Assembly: GCF_017471675.1 (NCBI RefSeq)
Contig: NZ_JAFUSK010000022.1
Span: 1 to 64,000, forward strand
Length of the DNA stretch: 64,000 nucleotides
DNA from: Pseudobutyrivibrio sp.
GTDB taxonomy: Bacteria; Bacillota; Clostridia; Lachnospirales; Lachnospiraceae
Direction: 5' to 3'
The position numbers were made by a program, and so were the translations under genes. This document shows, piece by piece, positions 3,292 through 48,453 of this stretch (positions are counted from its first letter, which is position 1; each line of letters begins with the position of its first letter). Under the pieces are notes generated by a model, which had not been told where the DNA came from, did not search any database, and saw only the letters and a program-made list of their open reading frames with translations.

Positions 3292-5055
3292 TTAATTCAA
3301 GGCTTTTAAAATAGATTCTGTAGCCTCTGCCACTGTGGTAGCAGAAGAATCTACATCAAAGCCTGCCTCTATTAAATCGTTCATCACATAAGTAACCTGT
3401 GGTGCTGCAAGCCCCATCTTCTCAAGCTCCTTGTAATGAGCAAAAACCTCCTTAGGTGTGCCATCAAATGCAGGCCGTCCGCTGTCCATTACGATAATTC
3501 TATCTACGTAATTAGCAACATCCTCCATTGAATGGGATACAAGGATAACTGTATCGCCTCTCTTTTCATGCATATCCTTTATAAGGCCAAGGATATCATC
3601 ACGTCCCTTAGGGTCAAGACCTGCTGTTGGCTCATCCAAAATAAGTACTGCCGGCTTCATAGCAATAACACCTGCTATTGCAGCTCTTCTCTTCTGTCCA
3701 CCTGAAAGCTCAAATGGAGAAGCAAGATACAGCTCCTCAGGAAGCTTAACAAGGCTAAGAGCCTCGTATGCACGCTTTATCTGTTCCTTTTCGTCTAAGC
3801 CCTGATTCTTAGGGCCAAACTGAACATCCTTAAATACTGTAGTTTCAAAAAGCTGATGCTCAGGATACTGGAACACCATTCCTACCTGAGTACGCAAATC
3901 CTTTATATCAAAATCCTTATCGTAAATGTCCTGACCACGATAATAGATGTGACCTTCTGTAGCCTTGATAAGCCCGTTTAAATGCTGCACAAGTGTGGAC
4001 TTGCCACTACCTGTGTGACCGATAATGCCAATAAACTCACCTTCTTTTATAGAAAGGCTAACATCATCTAAGGCTGTCACCTCGTAGGCTGTTCCTGGTG
4101 AATACTTATATGATGCATGGTCAAGAATGAGTACATTGTCACCAAATGATTTTTTATCTTCTGGCTGTGATGCAACTGGTGTCTGACCTGCTGCTAACTT
4201 GCGTAGGTTTAATTTAGTAAGAGCCTCTATCAGTTCCTTTCTTGTAAGAATACATTCTGGAATCTGAAGACCAGCCTTTCTAAGCTCATGTGCCAAAAGA
4301 GTAACCTGTGGTACATCAAGACTGTGCTCCTTAAGAAGCTCCACATCCTTGAATATCTCTCTTGGAGTGCCCTCCATAAAGACCTTACCCTTTTCCATTA
4401 CGAAAACATAATCGGAATCAACAACCTCTTCCATGTAATGAGTAATAAGGATTACAGTGATTCCCTTTTCACGGTTAAGGGTATGAACAGCCCTAAGTAC
4501 ATCGGCCCTACCATCAGGGTCAAGCATGGCTGTTGGCTCATCTAAGATGATGCACTTTGGCTCCATAGCCATAACGCCTGCAATTGCCACACGCTGCTTT
4601 TGTCCACCTGAAAGCTTGTTAGGTGAATGATTACGATATTTTTGCATTCCCACCATCTTAAGAGATTTGTCCACACGAACAAGAATCTCCTCTGTTGGAA
4701 CGCCGATATTTTCCGGACCAAAAGCTACATCCTCATCAACAACAGATGCAATAATTTGGTTGTCTGGATTTTGGAAAACCATGCCTGCTGTTTGACGCAC
4801 TGCAAATGTATACTCATCGTCAGATGTATTCATTTCATCTACCCAGATGGTGCCCTCTGATGGAGTAAGAAGTGCATTGATGTGCTTGGCGAATGTAGAC
4901 TTACCAGAGCCATTATGTCCTAAAATAGAAATAAACTGACCTGGCTCTACATTAAGATTAACGTGATCAAGGGCAGTCTGAATGCTTTCAACATTGCCCT
5001 CTTCATCACGTCTTATATATTCATGTACTAAATCTTTAGATCTGATAATTGACAT
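3292..5055 (-). CDS. Fused EcfA1-EcfA2 double ATPase of ECF transporter
   Basis: The 587-residue chain contains two complete ABC ATPase domains. Domain 1 has Walker A GHNGSGKS at residues 46-53, signature LSGGQKQR near 148 and Walker B CIILDEPTAMLDP near 168. Domain 2 has Walker A GHTGSGKS at 346-353, LSGGQKRR near 450 and VLILDEPTAGLDP near 470. Each resembles a full EcfA of about 280 residues. The join lies near residues 270-305 and is rich in Lys, Gln and Pro. In most Firmicutes ecfA1 and ecfA2 are separate adjacent genes, so this is a head-to-tail fusion that fixes the heterodimer in one chain. The N-terminal half should be the EcfA1 equivalent by gene order. Confidence 0.93.
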   Translation of the reverse strand: MSIIRSKDLVHEYIRRDEEGNVESIQTALDHVNLNVEPGQFISILGHNGSGKSTFAKHINALLTPSEGTIWVDEMNTSDDEYTFAVRQTAGMVFQNPDNQIIASVVDEDVAFGPENIGVPTEEILVRVDKSLKMVGMQKYRNHSPNKLSGGQKQRVAIAGVMAMEPKCIILDEPTAMLDPDGRADVLRAVHTLNREKGITVILITHYMEEVVDSDYVFVMEKGKVFMEGTPREIFKDVELLKEHSLDVPQVTLLAHELRKAGLQIPECILTRKELIEALTKLNLRKLAAGQTPVASQPEDKKSFGDNVLILDHASYKYSPGTAYEVTALDDVSLSIKEGEFIGIIGHTGSGKSTLVQHLNGLIKATEGHIYYRGQDIYDKDFDIKDLRTQVGMVFQYPEHQLFETTVFKDVQFGPKNQGLDEKEQIKRAYEALSLVKLPEELYLASPFELSGGQKRRAAIAGVIAMKPAVLILDEPTAGLDPKGRDDILGLIKDMHEKRGDTVILVSHSMEDVANYVDRIIVMDSGRPAFDGTPKEVFAHYKELEKMGLAAPQVTYVMNDLIEAGFDVDSSATTVAEATESILKALN

Positions 5056-5064
5056 TGGTACCCA

Positions 5065-5562
5065 CTATTCCTTCCAGTTGAGTCTATGTAAATTACCCTC
5101 AGTCTCCAAACCGAGGAAGTCGTTTTGTCTCAGGGCCTCGTATAAAACTACTGCCACTGAATTTGATAAATTAAGTGATCTGATATCATGTCCCATTGGA
5201 ATACGAACGCAATTCTCCTCATTGTCTACAAGAATCTCCTCAGGGATACCTGCTGATTCCTTGCCAAACATTATGTAGCAGTCTGGTTCGTAATGAACAT
5301 CTGTATGTTTTCTTTTGGCTTTTGTGGTAGCCATATAAACCTTAGCATCTGGGTTCTTTGCCTTGAAATCTTCCCAATCATCATAACGGAAAACCTCTAG
5401 CTTATCCCAATAATCCATACCTGCTCGCTTCACTGTCTTATCTGTAAGCACAAAGCCAAGCGGCTCAATCAGATGAAGACGAGTTCCTGTAGCACAGCAT
5501 GTTCGCCCAATATTCCCCGTATTTGCAGGAATCTCAGGCTCATGTAATACAATATTTAACAT
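5065..5562 (-). CDS. trmL: tRNA (cytidine/uridine-34-2'-O)-methyltransferase TrmL
   Basis: The 165-residue SPOUT-class protein begins MLNIVLHEPEIPANTGNIGR and has FGKESAGIPEEIL and IPMGHDIRSLNLSNSVAVVLYE, the knotted SAM-binding motifs of the TrmL/SpoU family. It methylates the wobble ribose of certain leucine tRNAs. It ends 9 bp before the fused ecfA start, so the ecf genes may be read from its promoter. Confidence 0.95.
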   Translation of the reverse strand: MLNIVLHEPEIPANTGNIGRTCCATGTRLHLIEPLGFVLTDKTVKRAGMDYWDKLEVFRYDDWEDFKAKNPDAKVYMATTKAKRKHTDVHYEPDCYIMFGKESAGIPEEILVDNEENCVRIPMGHDIRSLNLSNSVAVVLYEALRQNDFLGLETEGNLHRLNWKE

Positions 5563-5597
5563 TTTAAAACCTCTAATCTGTGTTCAGAATGCTTCGC

Positions 5598-5675
5598 CTG
5601 TTACAGTAACAAGCATTATGATTTCTCCGCTCGGCAACACGCCTCCCTTGAGAAATATAATAGCTTGTTACTTAC
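5598..5675. repeat. Dispersed palindromic repeat, copy A
   Basis: Imperfect inverted arms GTAACAAGCATTATGATTTC and GAAATATAATAGCTTGTTAC flank a variable loop. Two more copies of the same element occur at 20493-20566 and, inverted, at 40970-41055; the arms are conserved while the loop differs. It lies upstream of trmL, in a 314-bp gap with no gene. Confidence 0.85.
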
Positions 5676-5758
5676 ATGCTTGCATTCTGTTCTTTACGTT
5701 ATTCTAATCAACTACGTATCGTAAACCGTACGAACAAAATCATCATAAACCTAACGAA

Positions 5759-5847
5759 CATAATTCAGTTAACAAAGTAAAAATGTTCTGAATGAGACAT
5801 TCTTAGTCGAATGAAGAATATTTTTACTTTGTTAACGTAGAATTATG
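5759..5847. repeat. Long inverted repeat downstream of the aminotransferase gene
   Basis: Arms CATAATTC-a-GTTAACAAAG continuing to 5784 and the exact complement 5820-5836 plus GAATTATG at 5840-5847 enclose about 35 bases. The central 17 bp of each arm pair without mismatch. It can act as a transcript end for the aminotransferase gene and shares the TTAACAA start with copy A, but is otherwise a different sequence. Confidence 0.8.
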
Positions 5848-5876
5848 CACACAGTCTACGCTGATTTGTGCTCAGC

Positions 5877-7046
5877 CTACGATTTACGTAGTTCGTCCAC
5901 AAATTCTTCGATGCGGTCCATGGCGCGCTTTAGGCTTTCAAGGGAATATGCGTAAGATATACGTACATTGCCTTCGCCACTTTCTCCAAAGGCTGTGCCT
6001 GGAACCACTGCAACCTCTTTCTCACGAAGGAGGCGTGTACAGAATTCTTCGGAAGACATTCCAAATTCTGCAATGGATGGGAAAATATAGAATGCACCGT
6101 ATGGCTCAAAGCATTTAATTCCCATTTTCTTAAAGCGATTAAGGAGATAACGACGTCTGTCATTATATTCCTCTCGCATGTGAGCAACATCCTCATCGCA
6201 GTCACGGATAGCTGTTACTGCAGCGTACTGGCTGGTGGTAGGTGCACACATAATAGCAAACTGGTGAATCTTAGTCATCTGCTTAATAATAACCTCTGGA
6301 GCACATACATAGCCAAGACGCCAGCCTGTCATAGCGTGACTCTTTGAGAATCCATTGATGTAGATTGTACGCTCCTTCATTCCAGTGAAGCTGGCAATGG
6401 ATACATGGCCTTCACCTGTATATGTAAGCTCACCATAAATCTCATCAGTAAGCACAAACAAATCGTACTTCTTAACAAGCTCTACAATAGGCTCCAAATC
6501 AGCCTTTTCCATAACAGCACCTGTAGGGTTGTTAGGAAATGGCATAATAAGAATCTTTGTTTTATCGGTGATTGCAGCCTCAAGCTCCTCAGGCTTAAGT
6601 CTGAATTCGTTTTCTTCCTTAAGAGCAATAGGAACTGGTACACCACCAGCAAGGATGGTACATGGTTCGTAGCTTACATAGCAAGGCTGAGGAATAAGTA
6701 CCTCATCACCTGGGTCAAGCATGGCACGAAGTGCAATATCTATACCTTCAGAACCACCTACTGTCATAAGCATCTCTGTAAGCGGATTATATTCAAGTCC
6801 ATAGTGACGCTTAAGAAAATCTGCAATCTCAACTCTAAGCTCCTTCAAGCCTGAATTAGATGTATAAAAGGTACGACCTCTTTCCAAAGAATAGATAGCC
6901 TCGTCTCTTACCTTCCATGGTGTATCGAAATCTGGCTCGCCAACACCAAGAGATATTGCCTCTGGCATCTCTGCAACTATATCAAAAAACTTACGAATGC
7001 CTGATGGCTTTATTTCTGTAATAGTCTGATTTAAAGGGTTTCTCAT
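5877..7046 (-). CDS. PLP-dependent class I/II aminotransferase
   Basis: The 389-residue fold-type I enzyme shows SLGVGEPDF, the FPNNPTGAVM loop, LTDEIYGEL with the PLP-binding Asp/Tyr and NGFSKSHAMTGWRLGY with Schiff-base Lys235. These are typical of the Asp/aromatic aminotransferase subgroup. Its start overlaps the Lrp gene stop (ATGA), so both are translated together. This Lrp-aminotransferase pair is common in Clostridia. The precise amino donor cannot be read from sequence; an alanine, aspartate or aromatic substrate are all possible. Confidence 0.93.
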   Translation of the reverse strand: MRNPLNQTITEIKPSGIRKFFDIVAEMPEAISLGVGEPDFDTPWKVRDEAIYSLERGRTFYTSNSGLKELRVEIADFLKRHYGLEYNPLTEMLMTVGGSEGIDIALRAMLDPGDEVLIPQPCYVSYEPCTILAGGVPVPIALKEENEFRLKPEELEAAITDKTKILIMPFPNNPTGAVMEKADLEPIVELVKKYDLFVLTDEIYGELTYTGEGHVSIASFTGMKERTIYINGFSKSHAMTGWRLGYVCAPEVIIKQMTKIHQFAIMCAPTTSQYAAVTAIRDCDEDVAHMREEYNDRRRYLLNRFKKMGIKCFEPYGAFYIFPSIAEFGMSSEEFCTRLLREKEVAVVPGTAFGESGEGNVRISYAYSLESLKRAMDRIEEFVDELRKS

Positions 7047-44768: not shown

Positions 44769-45446
44769 CTAACAGGGCTTAATAATATCAGTTACTACTA
44801 GTCCCCCATCTGTTGCCATAAAGACAATATCATAACCGTGATATGCCATTCTGAAATCTCTTTGCTTTCCTCTATCATAGCCCGCTCTTGGATCCTGAGA
44901 TAACACCTGTATTGCAGACCTTCTAATATCTTCTGGAAGCTTCTCAAGAAGCTCCTTTGGAAAATCAACCTGCACCTGCCGATCTTTTGACAATGAATCG
45001 GTAAAACCTCCCCTGGCATCTGGATGTGCATCGGCATAAGGGATATAAGGCTTTATATCATAAATAGGTGTGCCGTCTAACATATCAACGCCACTTACCA
45101 CTAGAATATGTCCTTCATTTTCTGTTTGTCTTACCTCTAAAAGCCTCACAGAGGACATACCTATATTGTTAGGCCTATATGGTGCTCTTGTTGCAAACAC
45201 TCCCATGTGCTTTTCTCCCCCTAGACGTGGCGGACGCACTGTGCCACCTTCTAATGGCTTGTTCTTAGAAAACCCCCATAGCAACCACAGATAATCATAA
45301 TCCGTAATACCTTCTATGTATGTAGGATTTCTATATTCTGAGGTGAATACAATATAACCTATTTCATCTGCCAGCCCGCTTTGCCTAGGTATGCCAAATT
45401 TCTGTGTAAATCCTGTTTTAATGTATGCAATTTCTTTTAATTCCAT
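44769..45446 (-). CDS. trmO: tRNA (t6A37-N6)-methyltransferase TrmO
   Basis: Start set at MELKEIAYIKTGF with GAGGT four bases before. The 225-residue protein matches TsaA/TrmO: IPRQSGLADEIGYIVF, YLWLLWGFSKN, RPPRLGG, GVFATRAPYRPNNIGMSSVRLL and DIKPYIPYAD. It methylates threonylcarbamoyl-adenosine at position 37 of tRNA-Thr. It is monocistronic, with a long gene-free region upstream. Confidence 0.94.
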   Translation of the reverse strand: MELKEIAYIKTGFTQKFGIPRQSGLADEIGYIVFTSEYRNPTYIEGITDYDYLWLLWGFSKNKPLEGGTVRPPRLGGEKHMGVFATRAPYRPNNIGMSSVRLLEVRQTENEGHILVVSGVDMLDGTPIYDIKPYIPYADAHPDARGGFTDSLSKDRQVQVDFPKELLEKLPEDIRRSAIQVLSQDPRAGYDRGKQRDFRMAYHGYDIVFMATDGGLVVTDIIKPC

Positions 45447-45503
45447 CTTTACCTCAGCTTGTTTAATCAAAAATAGTACTGCTTATATGCAGCTTCAAAT
45501 ATC

Positions 45504-45531
45504 ATTATACTAATACATATAAAAAAAGTAA
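45504..45531 (-). promoter_or_regulatory. Probable promoter of trmO
   Basis: TATAAT (45504-45509) is a full -10 box preceded by TAG; the -35 is TTACTT (45526-45531), weak, at 16 bp. It lies just outside the repeat array. Confidence 0.5.
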
Positions 45532-45549
45532 TGTATTCTTGTAGAAAAT

Positions 45550-46040
45550 CTTAATTAACTGAGGGAATAAAAAGAAATAATTGAGTGTATTTTTCAAATT
45601 ATAATAATCCACTTAACAGCGTTTTTTACTTTTAAGCGGAAATAAGAAGCTTTTGAAATCCACTTAACTTTTGAGATTTTAATATGTGGGTGAATTTCTG
45701 AGAATTGCTAAACCGCTTAACTTTTGCTGGAATTCTTAAGCTGAATATGGCTATAGAAGAAAAACACTTACCACCAATTTTAAAAAGTTAAGTGTTTTTG
45801 GAGAAAACCTAGAATAAACGCACTTTTTAGGATGTGAATTAAGTGATTCTCACTAGATGTGCAAAAGCACTTACATTTTTTATAAGTGTAATTGGAGATG
45901 TCAAATATACCACTTAACTACCTACCAAAATAGTAAGCTTTCTAGGATAAAAGCCTATTTACACTTAACTTTTTCTTGGGAGTGATAAGTGGATTTTATA
46001 AACAAATAAATAACACTTATATTTATAAACGATTTTATTT
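45550..46040. repeat. Periodic array of CACTTA/TAAGTG inverted repeats, about 51-52 bp period
   Basis: Forward half-sites CACTTA (or one change) start at 45610, 45661, 45714, 45765, 45821, 45868, 45911, 45962 and 46014. Reverse half-sites TAAGTG (or one to two changes) start at 45582, 45633, 45683, 45737, 45789, 45840, 45883, 45934 and 45986. Steps are mostly 50-54 bp, with two or three units of 43-47 bp. Each unit is a spaced palindrome (CCACTTAAC ... TTAAGTGG, centre gap about 15 bp) plus about 20 unrelated bases. No ORF or recognised RNA fills the region. Confidence 0.85.
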
Positions 46041-46093
46041 AATAGGGAAATACACCTGACTAATTCAATGTTTTTAGGACCAAAAATTAAAAC

Positions 46094-46121
46094 ACCCACA
46101 AAAAGCTATGACTTCTTGTGG
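46094..46121 (-). terminator. Second hairpin after apt
   Basis: CCCACAAGAAG and CTTTTTGTGGG form a stem followed by TGTTTTAATTTTT on the minus strand. Together with the one at 46163 it isolates the repeat array from apt transcription. Confidence 0.7.
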
Positions 46122-46162
46122 GCTACTTAAGGAAAAAGCCTACAAAAACCTATATTATAAAA

Positions 46163-46183
46163 GGCAGTACCTAAAGTACTGCC
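46163..46183 (-). terminator. Terminator of apt
   Basis: GGCAGTAC-tttag-GTACTGCC, a perfect 8-bp stem, followed by TTTTATAAT, 16 bp after the apt stop. Confidence 0.85.
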
Positions 46184-46198
46184 CAATAATAATCTCTA

Positions 46199-46723
46199 TT
46201 ACTTTCCTTCGTATGTAACAACTGATGATACATCATACTTAGCAAGCTTCTCACGTCCATTAAGACCTGCAAGCTCCATAAGGAAGATAATCTTAACAAC
46301 CTCTCCGCCAAGCTCCTCAACAAGCTGAGCTGCTGCTTCGATAGTACCGCCTGTAGCGATAAGGTCATCTACGATAACAACCTTCTGGCCTGGCTTAACT
46401 GCATCCTTATGCATTTCGATAGTAGCTGTGCCGTACTCAAGGTCGTAAGTCTTCTCGATAGTTTCGCATGGAAGCTTACCTTTCTTACGAATAAGTACAA
46501 ATGGTTTGTTAAGTGCATAAGCAAGTGGTGCACCAAATATAAATCCACGGCTCTCAGCGCCTGCGATAACATCGCAATCAACATTCTCAAGTAACTTCTT
46601 CATCTCATCAATAGCGAGGTGGAAGCCTTCAGCATCCTGTAAAATACTTGTAACATCACGGAACATGATGCCTGGCTCTGGGAAATCCGGAATAGTTCTG
46701 ATGTAATCTTCTACTTTTTTCAT
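46199..46723 (-). CDS. apt: Adenine phosphoribosyltransferase
   Basis: The 174-residue enzyme has IRTIPDFPEPGIMFRDVTSIL at the start, AGAESRGFIFGAPLAYALN, the PRPP-binding loop VVIVDDLIATGGTIEAA and FLMELAGLNGREKL, all diagnostic for Apt. It salvages adenine to AMP. It is transcribed alone from the promoter at 46808-46836 and ends in two terminators. Confidence 0.97.
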   Translation of the reverse strand: MKKVEDYIRTIPDFPEPGIMFRDVTSILQDAEGFHLAIDEMKKLLENVDCDVIAGAESRGFIFGAPLAYALNKPFVLIRKKGKLPCETIEKTYDLEYGTATIEMHKDAVKPGQKVVIVDDLIATGGTIEAAAQLVEELGGEVVKIIFLMELAGLNGREKLAKYDVSSVVTYEGK

Positions 46724-46944: not shown

Positions 46945-48453
46945 TTACTGAAGTAATGAAAGAACACCCTGTGTTGCCTGATTTGCCTGAGCGAGCATTG
47001 ACTGGCCTGCCTGAGCAAGAATATTGTTCTTGCTGTATGTAACCATCTCGTCAGCCATATCTGTATCACGGATACGTGATTCAGCGGCATCTGTGTTCTC
47101 AACTACGTTATCAAGATTTGCTATACTGTGCTCTAATCTGTTTTGGATGGCACCAAGGCTAGATCTCTGAGCAGAAACCTTTGTTAAAGCATCTGCAATA
47201 GAATCAATTGCGTATGTTGCTGCCTTACCTGTGGCATCACTTACATTTAAGCCCTGGATTCCAAGTGCTGTTGCTGACATTGATTCGATATTTACGCTAA
47301 TCTTATTTGTCATATCAGCGTCTGAACCTACATGCAAATTGAATGAAAGATCATTCTGAACTACTGCTGTTCCCTTCTGGATGATGAACTGAACCTTATT
47401 ATTAGCTGTTGTGATTTCAGATGGTAACTTATTGCTTGCTGTAGCAATATTACTCTCTGCTTGACCATTTGTCATGATTGTTGTATTACCGATTTTAACT
47501 GTCAATCCATCAATAACAGCATCTGCACCAATAGAAGATGCAGCTCTTAGCTCATTTGCCATAAGCTCATATGCTTTTGCCTGAGTAATGACGGTTGTAT
47601 TCTTAGAATCCACACCAGTCTCTGTTACACCTGTTGTTCCTGTAGTTGGTCCAGTCGCTCCCATATCGTTGAATAGTGTCACTGTTTTACCATTGTATTC
47701 AATAGTAGAACCGTTGCTGGCAAATTTGATAAACTCATTCTTGTTAAGCTCAGATGTGTTAACATTTGTGTTGTCAGCAATTGTAAATGACTTACCATCA
47801 ATCTTAACTACAGAACCATTAGTCAGATTTGTTGCACCCAAAATAGCTAAACCATTATTAATCATTGTTGCGGTTGTAGCTCCAGCGACACCAATTGTGT
47901 ACTTTGTACCACCAATTGTTACTGTATCACCCATTGCAAGAGCGTTGATTGTAAATGTTGCCTTTGTGGTGTTCTGTGTAAGTGTGCCTTCAAGACCCGC
48001 ATCATGCGCCTTAATTACTTGTGTCTTGGTGCCAAAGTCCCCCTTGAGAAGATAGGTCTCATTGAACTTAGTCGTCTCAGCGACACGGTCGATTTCTGTA
48101 GTTAACTGTATAATTTCATCCTGGATAGATGAACGGTCATCTTCAGAGTTTGTACCGTTTGCTGCCTGGACTGCCAATTCATTCATTCTCTGTAACATAG
48201 AATGTACCTCTGTAAGGGCACCCTCGGCGGTTTGTACTGCTGAGATACCGTCTGATGCGTTGGTTGAAGCCTGATCCAGACCACGAATCTGCTTTCTCAT
48301 TTTCTCTGAAATTGAGAGACCAGCTGCATCATCAGCGGCTCTGTTGATTCTAAAACCACTTGAAAGTTTCTCAGTAGACTTAGACTGAGCATTTGTTGTT
48401 ATTCCTAACATTCTTGAAGCATTAGCTGCCTGCATATTGTGTTGTACTACCAT
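46945..48453 (-). CDS. fliC: Flagellin 1
   Basis: The 502-residue protein has the D0/D1 N-terminus VVQHNMQAANASRMLGITTN and AADDAAGLSISEKMRKQIRG, and the C-terminal AESRIRDTDMADEMVTYSKN and ILAQAGQSMLAQANQ. The central 200 residues form the variable outer domain, Thr/Asn/Gly-rich. It differs from flagellins 2 and 3 mostly in the centre and at a few end positions (SKSTEKLSSGFR, FGTKTQVIKA). A sigma28 promoter lies 310 bp upstream; GGAGGT lies 6-7 bases before the ATG. Confidence 0.95.
   Translation of the reverse strand: MVVQHNMQAANASRMLGITTNAQSKSTEKLSSGFRINRAADDAAGLSISEKMRKQIRGLDQASTNASDGISAVQTAEGALTEVHSMLQRMNELAVQAANGTNSEDDRSSIQDEIIQLTTEIDRVAETTKFNETYLLKGDFGTKTQVIKAHDAGLEGTLTQNTTKATFTINALAMGDTVTIGGTKYTIGVAGATTATMINNGLAILGATNLTNGSVVKIDGKSFTIADNTNVNTSELNKNEFIKFASNGSTIEYNGKTVTLFNDMGATGPTTGTTGVTETGVDSKNTTVITQAKAYELMANELRAASSIGADAVIDGLTVKIGNTTIMTNGQAESNIATASNKLPSEITTANNKVQFIIQKGTAVVQNDLSFNLHVGSDADMTNKISVNIESMSATALGIQGLNVSDATGKAATYAIDSIADALTKVSAQRSSLGAIQNRLEHSIANLDNVVENTDAAESRIRDTDMADEMVTYSKNNILAQAGQSMLAQANQATQGVLSLLQ

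Follow-up and report, generated by a model that had tools for sequence, protein, structure and literature searches.

Dispersed repeats of bacterial genomes are usually short palindromes, and they are often derived from transposons. MITEs and other non-autonomous transposons are short and dispersed, they have inverted ends, and empty sites are found in relatives. Sites of the parS or centromere-like kind are palindromic and load a structural protein, the parS consensus being 16 bp long, and a CRISPR array is composed of near-identical repeats with unique spacers. BIMEs are dispersed elements that have been reported to bind gyrase and IHF, and BIME/REP copy numbers are usually above 100 per genome (both as given in an excerpt of PMC2817692). 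For the Lrp-type protein Ah-BarR, the excerpted text of PMC10201364 describes palindromic sites spaced by 17 or 27-29 bp, with the DNA appearing to be wrapped on an octamer.

As judged from its sequence, the array described here would belong to the known kind of dispersed intergenic palindromic repeats; its plan was found in none of the libraries and literature that were searched. This agrees with the first-pass annotation of the locus, which had recognised no known family.

The half-site array between trmO and apt

The DNA analysed here (the window, 64,000 nucleotides of a Pseudobutyrivibrio genome, on contig C82) carries an array of ACTTAA-type half-sites that runs from 45555 to 46020 in the intergenic gap between trmO and apt. 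The first-pass annotation had placed the array at 45550..46040, which is the right place although the exact run is shorter, and it had counted about nine CACTTA and about nine TAAGTG half-sites, whereas 7 and 4 of these, respectively, are exact hexamers and the rest are variants. When one mismatch was allowed, the stretch 45550-46040 contained 15 half-sites (7 of the TTAAGTG type and 8 of the CACTTAA type) and 9 lattice-spaced pairs. By comparison, 5000 dinucleotide shuffles had a mean of 3.3 half-sites and 0.04 pairs, with maxima of 13 and 2, and the 1250 overlapping 491-bp stretches of the remaining window reached at most 6 half-sites and 1 lattice-spaced pair. The array is therefore real and far above chance.

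The half-sites from 45581 to 46014 follow one another in steps of 29, 22, 29, 53, 22, 29, 23, 51, 29, 14, 29, 51, 23 and 29 bp. The window copy belongs to a form that we call type A, with ten half-sites from 45736 onwards (the first one weak) at gaps of 29, 23, 51, 29, 14, 29, 51, 23 and 29 bp; two positions are replaced by conserved variants, and there is an extension to the left. The type A core is 82.6% identical to the copy on contig C37 over 321 bp, and 81.5% identical to the copy on C52 over 330 bp. The features of the locus are the following:

44769..45470, minus strand: trmO-like gene, left neighbour (open reading frame; name from the first-pass annotation)
45532..46160, approximate: DNA that the empty sites in G013 and G023 lack (edges by eye)
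45555..46020, no strand: whole array of ACTTAA-type half-sites
45555..45735, no strand: left extension, extra half-sites on the same 29/22-23 lattice
45736..46020, no strand: type A element core, common to the copies on C37, C52, C27, C83, C89 and C88
45581..45587, minus strand: half-site TTGAGTG, start of the regular steps
45610..45616, plus strand: half-site CACTTAA, step of 29 bp
45632..45638, minus strand: half-site TTAAGCG, step of 22 bp
45661..45667, plus strand: half-site CACTTAA, step of 29 bp
45714..45720, plus strand: half-site CGCTTAA, step of 53 bp
45736..45742, minus strand: half-site TTAAGCT, weak (two mismatches), step of 22 bp
45765..45771, plus strand: half-site CACTTAC, step of 29 bp
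45788..45794, minus strand: half-site TTAAGTG, step of 23 bp
45839..45845, minus strand: half-site TTAAGTG, step of 51 bp, with the conserved variant GCACTTTTT within the step
45868..45874, plus strand: half-site CACTTAC, step of 29 bp
45882..45888, minus strand: half-site ATAAGTG, step of 14 bp; the dyad centre lies between the preceding site and this one
45911..45917, plus strand: half-site CACTTAA, step of 29 bp
45962..45968, plus strand: half-site CACTTAA, step of 51 bp, with the conserved variant AGTAAGC within the step
45985..45991, minus strand: half-site ATAAGTG, step of 23 bp
46014..46020, plus strand: half-site CACTTAT, the final one of the array, step of 29 bp
46162..46184, minus strand: apt-side terminator hairpin; a similar hairpin is present at the empty sites
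46199..46723, minus strand: apt-like gene, right neighbour (open reading frame; name from the first-pass annotation)

A sister copy in genome G006 lacks a block of about 115 bp of the left extension. The two terminators that had been described between the array and apt are both present, on the minus strand (46123-46094 and 46184-46162), although the first of them lies in DNA that is absent from G006 and from the empty sites. A flagellin-like ORF (46945-48453) lies about 1 kb from the window array, and flagellin-like or flagellar-looking ORFs, recognised by eye, were seen near arrays in several genomes (L131 4822-5132 and 9694-10005, L073, L084 and L095).

Lattice geometry and constraint on the half-sites

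The main form of the array, type B, has 14 half-sites with the core ACTTAA that make up seven modules TTAAGTG-N21/22-CACTTAA, joined by gaps of 25, 22, 33, 24 or 14, 33 and 22 bp (start to start). A TTAAGTG-type site comes first and a CACTTAA-type site last, and the gaps of modules 2 to 7 are two-fold symmetric. Fitting of this lattice to 49 loci resulted in 34 type B fits with scores of at least 40, the maximum among 25 shuffled controls being 10.1. Same-locus repeats were dropped, which left 23 type B copies, and since L045 and L054 still represent one locus, counts were made on 22 loci. Each copy was turned with its stronger end first, which partly explains why the last two type B positions are weak; in L041 and L068, both ends carry sites.

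As a control for selection by the fit, the distances between adjacent perfect sites were counted at 32 unselected loci, one per locus. In the TTAAGTG..CACTTAA sense, these distances were 28 bp (48 cases), 29 bp (27 cases) or 30 bp (1 case), and 11 were longer (72-123 bp). In the other, facing sense, distances of 13/14 (4), 21-23 (29), 24/25 (19), 33 (8), 35 (1) and 43 bp (4) were found; in addition, 2 pairs overlapped (3 bp), 11 distances were of 64 bp or more, and none of 15-20, 26-32, 34 or 36-42 bp occurred at these loci. The constant spacing is therefore the one from TTAAGTG to CACTTAA (28-29 bp), and not that of the unit chosen in the first-pass annotation, which in its literal form does not occur in the array; CCACTTAA-N10-20-TTAAGTGG had a single match in the genome, which lies on contig C88.

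The linkers between the modules vary in a particular manner. With both bounding sites perfect, deviations from the canonical linker length at the 22 loci (within ±15 bp, and conditioned on a fit that allowed shifts of 1 or 10 bp only) were 0 bp in 48 cases, -10/-11 bp in 4, +10 bp in 5 and -1 bp in 1, so that 9 of the 10 deviations equal about one helical turn. In the 23-copy set, which includes the L045/L054 pair, the periodicity of same-orientation distances peaks at 10.2-10.3 bp per turn. However, a random shared architecture attains the mean periodicity at 10.25 bp with P = 0.019, which is only moderately unusual if the copies share an architecture, and the turn-wise variation of the linkers is therefore the stronger argument.

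These data bear on the view that the array arose by chance or by simple tandem duplication of a 50-bp unit. In its left extension, the window copy does show a default repeat near 51 bp, and there are also short direct repeats (12-17 nt). Nevertheless, this explanation was rejected, being refuted by the shuffle test, by the identical position-specific gaps that recur across copies and by the unselected spacing counts. Moreover, the sequences between the half-sites for the most part do not repeat one another, in line with the earlier suggestion that the array is not a simple tandem duplication. We therefore assign practically no probability to it. A CRISPR array was likewise considered and rejected: direct repeats in 45300-46300 reach no more than 12-17 nt and are present in 2-3 copies, and the order of the gaps recurs in copies elsewhere.

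In addition, the first-pass annotation had raised the possibility of a transcribed string of small hairpins, to which hairpins extruded from single strands can be added. Facing half-sites can indeed pair over 7 bp. Covariation and change counts, for which the 23-copy set including the same-locus pair L045/L054 was used, left some signal that would favour hairpins or cruciforms, namely a weak covariation 2-4 bases outside the facing half-sites (z 2.4-2.9), another pairing with two half-site positions at z 4.2 and 3.5, and double changes that kept the pairing in 12 of 13 cases (symmetric, position 0). Against this, covariation inside the loops of facing half-sites was no better than in shuffled columns and none was found across the dyad, the 12 paired double changes compare with 80 single changes that broke a pair, and the loop lengths jump by one DNA turn. 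In Rfam, the whole window had no match at curated score, and a further search gave 4 matches (best E 0.14), all below the gathering scores. Promoter-like matches were not above the level in shuffles (5 versus 3.6, sd 2.0). A structured RNA or extruded hairpins are therefore disfavoured, and we consider them very improbable.

The half-sites are constrained. Across seven orthologous pairs, 17 of 707 half-site positions (2.4%) and 274 of 1883 spacer positions (14.6%) had changed, with a Mantel-Haenszel odds ratio of 0.13 and a p-value of about 6e-19 that is indicative because the sites were treated as independent. The core length was equal in 6 of the 7 pairs, including two with 30% spacer divergence (364 bp in both). 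L085/L097 and L050/L082 were excluded from this count as same-locus repeats, and L047/L064 and L034/L060 because not both members belonged to the lattice set. When aligned apart, L034/L060 showed a weaker contrast, with 11 of 86 half-site and 78 of 210 spacer positions changed. The pair L045/L086, also excluded, showed no contrast (20 of 91 and 74 of 357), because one copy misses an internal block and the alignment slips. At this place (L045 4314-4468), the second array of the C88 locus is without the internal block in the relative, and the same-orientation half-sites that bound the block are 154 bp apart, which is near 15 turns of 10.25 bp. For all aligned pairs pooled in both directions, the changes amounted to 42 of 1973 half-site and 929 of 8851 spacer positions. 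For many copies, the locus is the same in several genomes. Helical phasing and the combination of conserved half-sites with less constrained spacers give the array the appearance of a repeated protein site on double-stranded DNA, as had been proposed from the window.

Dispersal of the arrays and their genomic context

A second array was found via one exact pair on contig C88, which holds two forms in tandem; an ABC-2 transporter-like gene (PF12698) is located to the right of this array. Searches with the C88 array and the paired-site pattern, after which 12 regions were read, yielded about 12 places with arrays in the window's own genome (C7, C10, C27, C37, C51, C52, C65, C81 as a partial one, C82 with the window, C83, C88 and C89). 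The reversed control pattern had no match in this genome. A match on C85 was not an array on reading. The elements have a size of roughly 300-450 bp.

Among the GTDB species genomes, a 21-base pattern of three half-sites with lattice gaps matched 52 stretches, in a scan that may not include genome records close to that of the window. Of these stretches, 37 were from Pseudobutyrivibrio, and 36 of the 37 had at least 4 clustered perfect half-sites. The 15 stretches from other taxa were all viewed, 12 as half-site pattern and 9 as sequence, and the lattice was present in none. Five records from Chryseobacterium (L061, L062, L065, L080 and L081) contain repeats of a palindrome that differs from that of the arrays, with motifs similar to CACTTAAGTT / TTAAGTGAC, and by their sequence look like another palindrome family. 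Within the genus, the strict pattern was found in 10 of 29 genomes with 0 control matches and blastn gave matches in 11 of 29, the union being 12; a simpler pair pattern matched in 16 of 29 with 0-2 control matches per genome, and some of the single matches may be due to chance. Long type A matches were obtained in G000, G006, G013 and G026 and, by alignment, in L073 and L086. In the genomes G003 and G004, clusters that include a perfect module number 7 and 12, respectively, counts that leave out arrays without such a module. In G003, the array positions (on one 2.70-Mb contig of two) showed no clear pattern relative to dnaA. Five viral stretches of IMG/VR matched, none of them with the lattice, and one 361-bp type B copy used as query had no match in phage and plasmid collections. 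A search for other repeated 7-mers at the 67 loci that had been collected for apt, M42 and TrkA detected nothing comparable outside the known arrays.

We compared orthologous loci among the genomes of the genus. apt is present in 27 of 29 genomes, with trmO adjoining in 23, and only G000 and G006 have the array between them; the other 21 have gaps of 48-338 bp and no array. Compared with G013 and G023, G000 has extra DNA that is located between the leader of trmO and the terminator of apt, and AAAAG was seen by eye at either edge of it. The M42-RACo pair is kept at 9 of 26 loci, with an array in G000 and G013 and gaps of 9-64 bp in the other 7. For the TrkA gene, the neighbour is kept at 3 of 14 loci, with an array in G000 and a 21-bp gap in two. 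G006 has the trmO-apt array in common with G000 and misses the M42-RACo array, while the reverse is true for G013, which indicates that gain, loss or exchange of arrays is going on. As copies are present or absent among relatives with a 97-98% identical flanking protein, no single copy appears to be needed.

The first-pass annotation had named absence from the same locus in close relatives as an outcome that would speak against the array. This absence was in fact observed in 21 of the 23 trmO-apt genomes, and it indicates dispersal rather than an artefact. The centromere-like site and the iteron-type array that had also been suggested are, in the sense of a unique locus, not supported, in view of the same absence, the approximately 12 copies in the own genome and the 7 and 12 clusters in two others.

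At the M42-RACo locus (L150, L154-L156), a hairpin seen by eye between the convergent genes of G004, G023 and G024 occupies the place of the G000 array. The arrays might act as bidirectional transcription blocks.

Dispersal raises the question whether the array is a MITE-like non-autonomous mobile element, whose half-sites would be bound in trans by a transposase or recombinase and whose copies would spread by insertion. The up to 82.6% identity of dispersed type A copies is consistent with this, as are the empty sites at trmO-apt (21 of 23) and M42-RACo (7 of 9), the 21-bp gaps at 2 of 3 TrkA loci, and the ends of type B, which starts with a TTAAGTG-type and finishes with a CACTTAA-type site. 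The AAAAG at both edges of the trmO-apt insert also fits, but is weak as a target duplication because it lies inside an A-tract. A further supporting observation comes from L130 (G003:C1:922000-933000), where two arrays about 1.1 kb apart (4820-6310) are 89.9% identical over 395 bp. These flank a 193-aa ORF without Pfam match, which in G002 is found among other neighbours and with a single array. The region therefore resembles a gene island undergoing shuffling, whose joints are marked by arrays. On the other hand, half-sites are constrained at loci that are fixed in several genomes, which a dead insertion would not show. The Y1 transposase (PF01797, Y1/RAYT) was found in 2 of the 10 strict-array genomes, most of which are draft assemblies, and not in the other 8, including the own genome. 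Among the 30 scanned neighbour proteins, there was no transposase match. On balance, mobility as the explanation for the arrays is rather unlikely, without being negligible, and it is the strongest rival of the reading proposed below.

The proteins next to the arrays also inform on a possible regulatory function. The Pfam scan covered 29 of the 57 neighbour entries and one L130 protein, in total 30 proteins, of which 22 had a family and 8 had none; no family was common to different loci. Mechanical ORF calls for both neighbours at 26 loci gave 19 tandem, 5 convergent and 2 divergent arrangements. The neighbour gene of the C10 array (L039:3003-3572, minus strand) encodes a SAP_new25 and DUF6434 protein that was seen next to this one array only. 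SAP domains bind DNA, and this protein is a possible candidate for the binder. The arrays could also be compound operators of a local transcription factor and its regulon. In favour of such operators, helically phased palindromic half-sites resemble multi-site operators, for example those of the Lrp-type BarR in the excerpt of PMC10201364. However, arrays also lie between convergent genes, the families of the neighbours are unrelated, and the copies at the three tested loci can be missing in relatives. Furthermore, all perfect modules of G003 (19 of 19) and G004 (29 of 29) lie among at least 10 half-sites within 350 bp, and as all 48 are thus inside arrays, no isolated operators of such form were seen in these two genomes. 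We therefore regard a regulon operator as improbable.

A proposed architectural element and its comparison with known systems

The constant modules, turn-wise linkers, two-fold symmetry and conserved half-sites fit a large oligomer that would contact one face of the double-stranded DNA. We propose, with a probability of roughly 55%, that the array is a dispersed architectural element on which a putative oligomeric protein assembles, probably wrapping the DNA. Each copy would be a scaffold of at least 10 half-sites with the core ACTTAA on a double-stranded DNA lattice, where modules TTAAGTG-N21/22-CACTTAA are joined, in a two-fold symmetric order, by linkers that differ by whole helical turns between copies. 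A sequence-specific oligomeric DNA-binding protein, or stacked dimers, may dock on these half-sites and would then wrap or bridge about 300-360 bp into a symmetric nucleoprotein particle. With copies in many unrelated intergenic regions, the elements would serve as architectural or insulating nodes, and not as operators of particular genes. The analysis demonstrates the lattice and its symmetry, the turn-wise changes of length, the dispersal, the presence or absence of copies at single loci among relatives and the constraint on the half-sites, from which the binding of an oligomeric protein, the wrapping and the architectural role are inferred. The architectural reading and that of a mobile element moved in trans can both be true.

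A more far-reaching version is that the array is a bacterial counterpart of a nucleosome-positioning element. Its main conserved content would be the two-fold symmetric set of half-sites at a phase of about 10.25 bp, which would programme the assembly of one large protein particle on some 360 bp of DNA, at several places in the chromosome. The whole would amount to a system of chromosome organisation specific to the clade, with a putative protein of its own. We put this forward tentatively, as a possibility that we ourselves hold to be somewhat doubtful.

The array carries a detailed geometric plan that is kept by selection at fixed loci while the remaining sequence drifts. If a protein is found, this plan would predict the symmetry and the contacts of the particle. 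If the proposal is true, a genus from the rumen would offer sequence-programmed DNA wrapping that is genetically addressable, and would allow one to test whether bacterial chromosomes are organised by dispersed repeats.

Compared with known systems, the array shares with parS that it is a palindromic site, proposed to load a structural protein. It differs from parS by its several dispersed copies without a clear link to the origin, and no parS-like sequence was detected in the window with up to 3 mismatches. Like MITEs, the arrays are short and dispersed, with inverted ends and empty sites; unlike MITEs, they are without a firm target duplication or a found transposase, and their half-sites are constrained at fixed loci. 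Several palindromic sites on one face of the DNA, at spacings about one turn apart, are also a property of Lrp-type operators as described in the excerpt of PMC10201364. The Ah-BarR sites of that excerpt regulate one divergent gene pair, whereas for the dispersed arrays no connection with gene function was apparent. BIME/REP elements differ from the arrays in several respects: the arrays have AT-rich 7-bp half-sites, a two-fold symmetric plan of 12-14 positions and turn-wise linkers, they number about 12 in the own genome as compared with more than 100 (excerpt of PMC2817692), and 8 of the 10 strict-array genomes yielded no Y1 transposase. Nevertheless, both are dispersed intergenic palindromic units with alternating orientation and regular spacing, as far as the excerpted text of PMC2817692 describes them for BIME/REP, and by analogy the BIME is the nearest kind of element.
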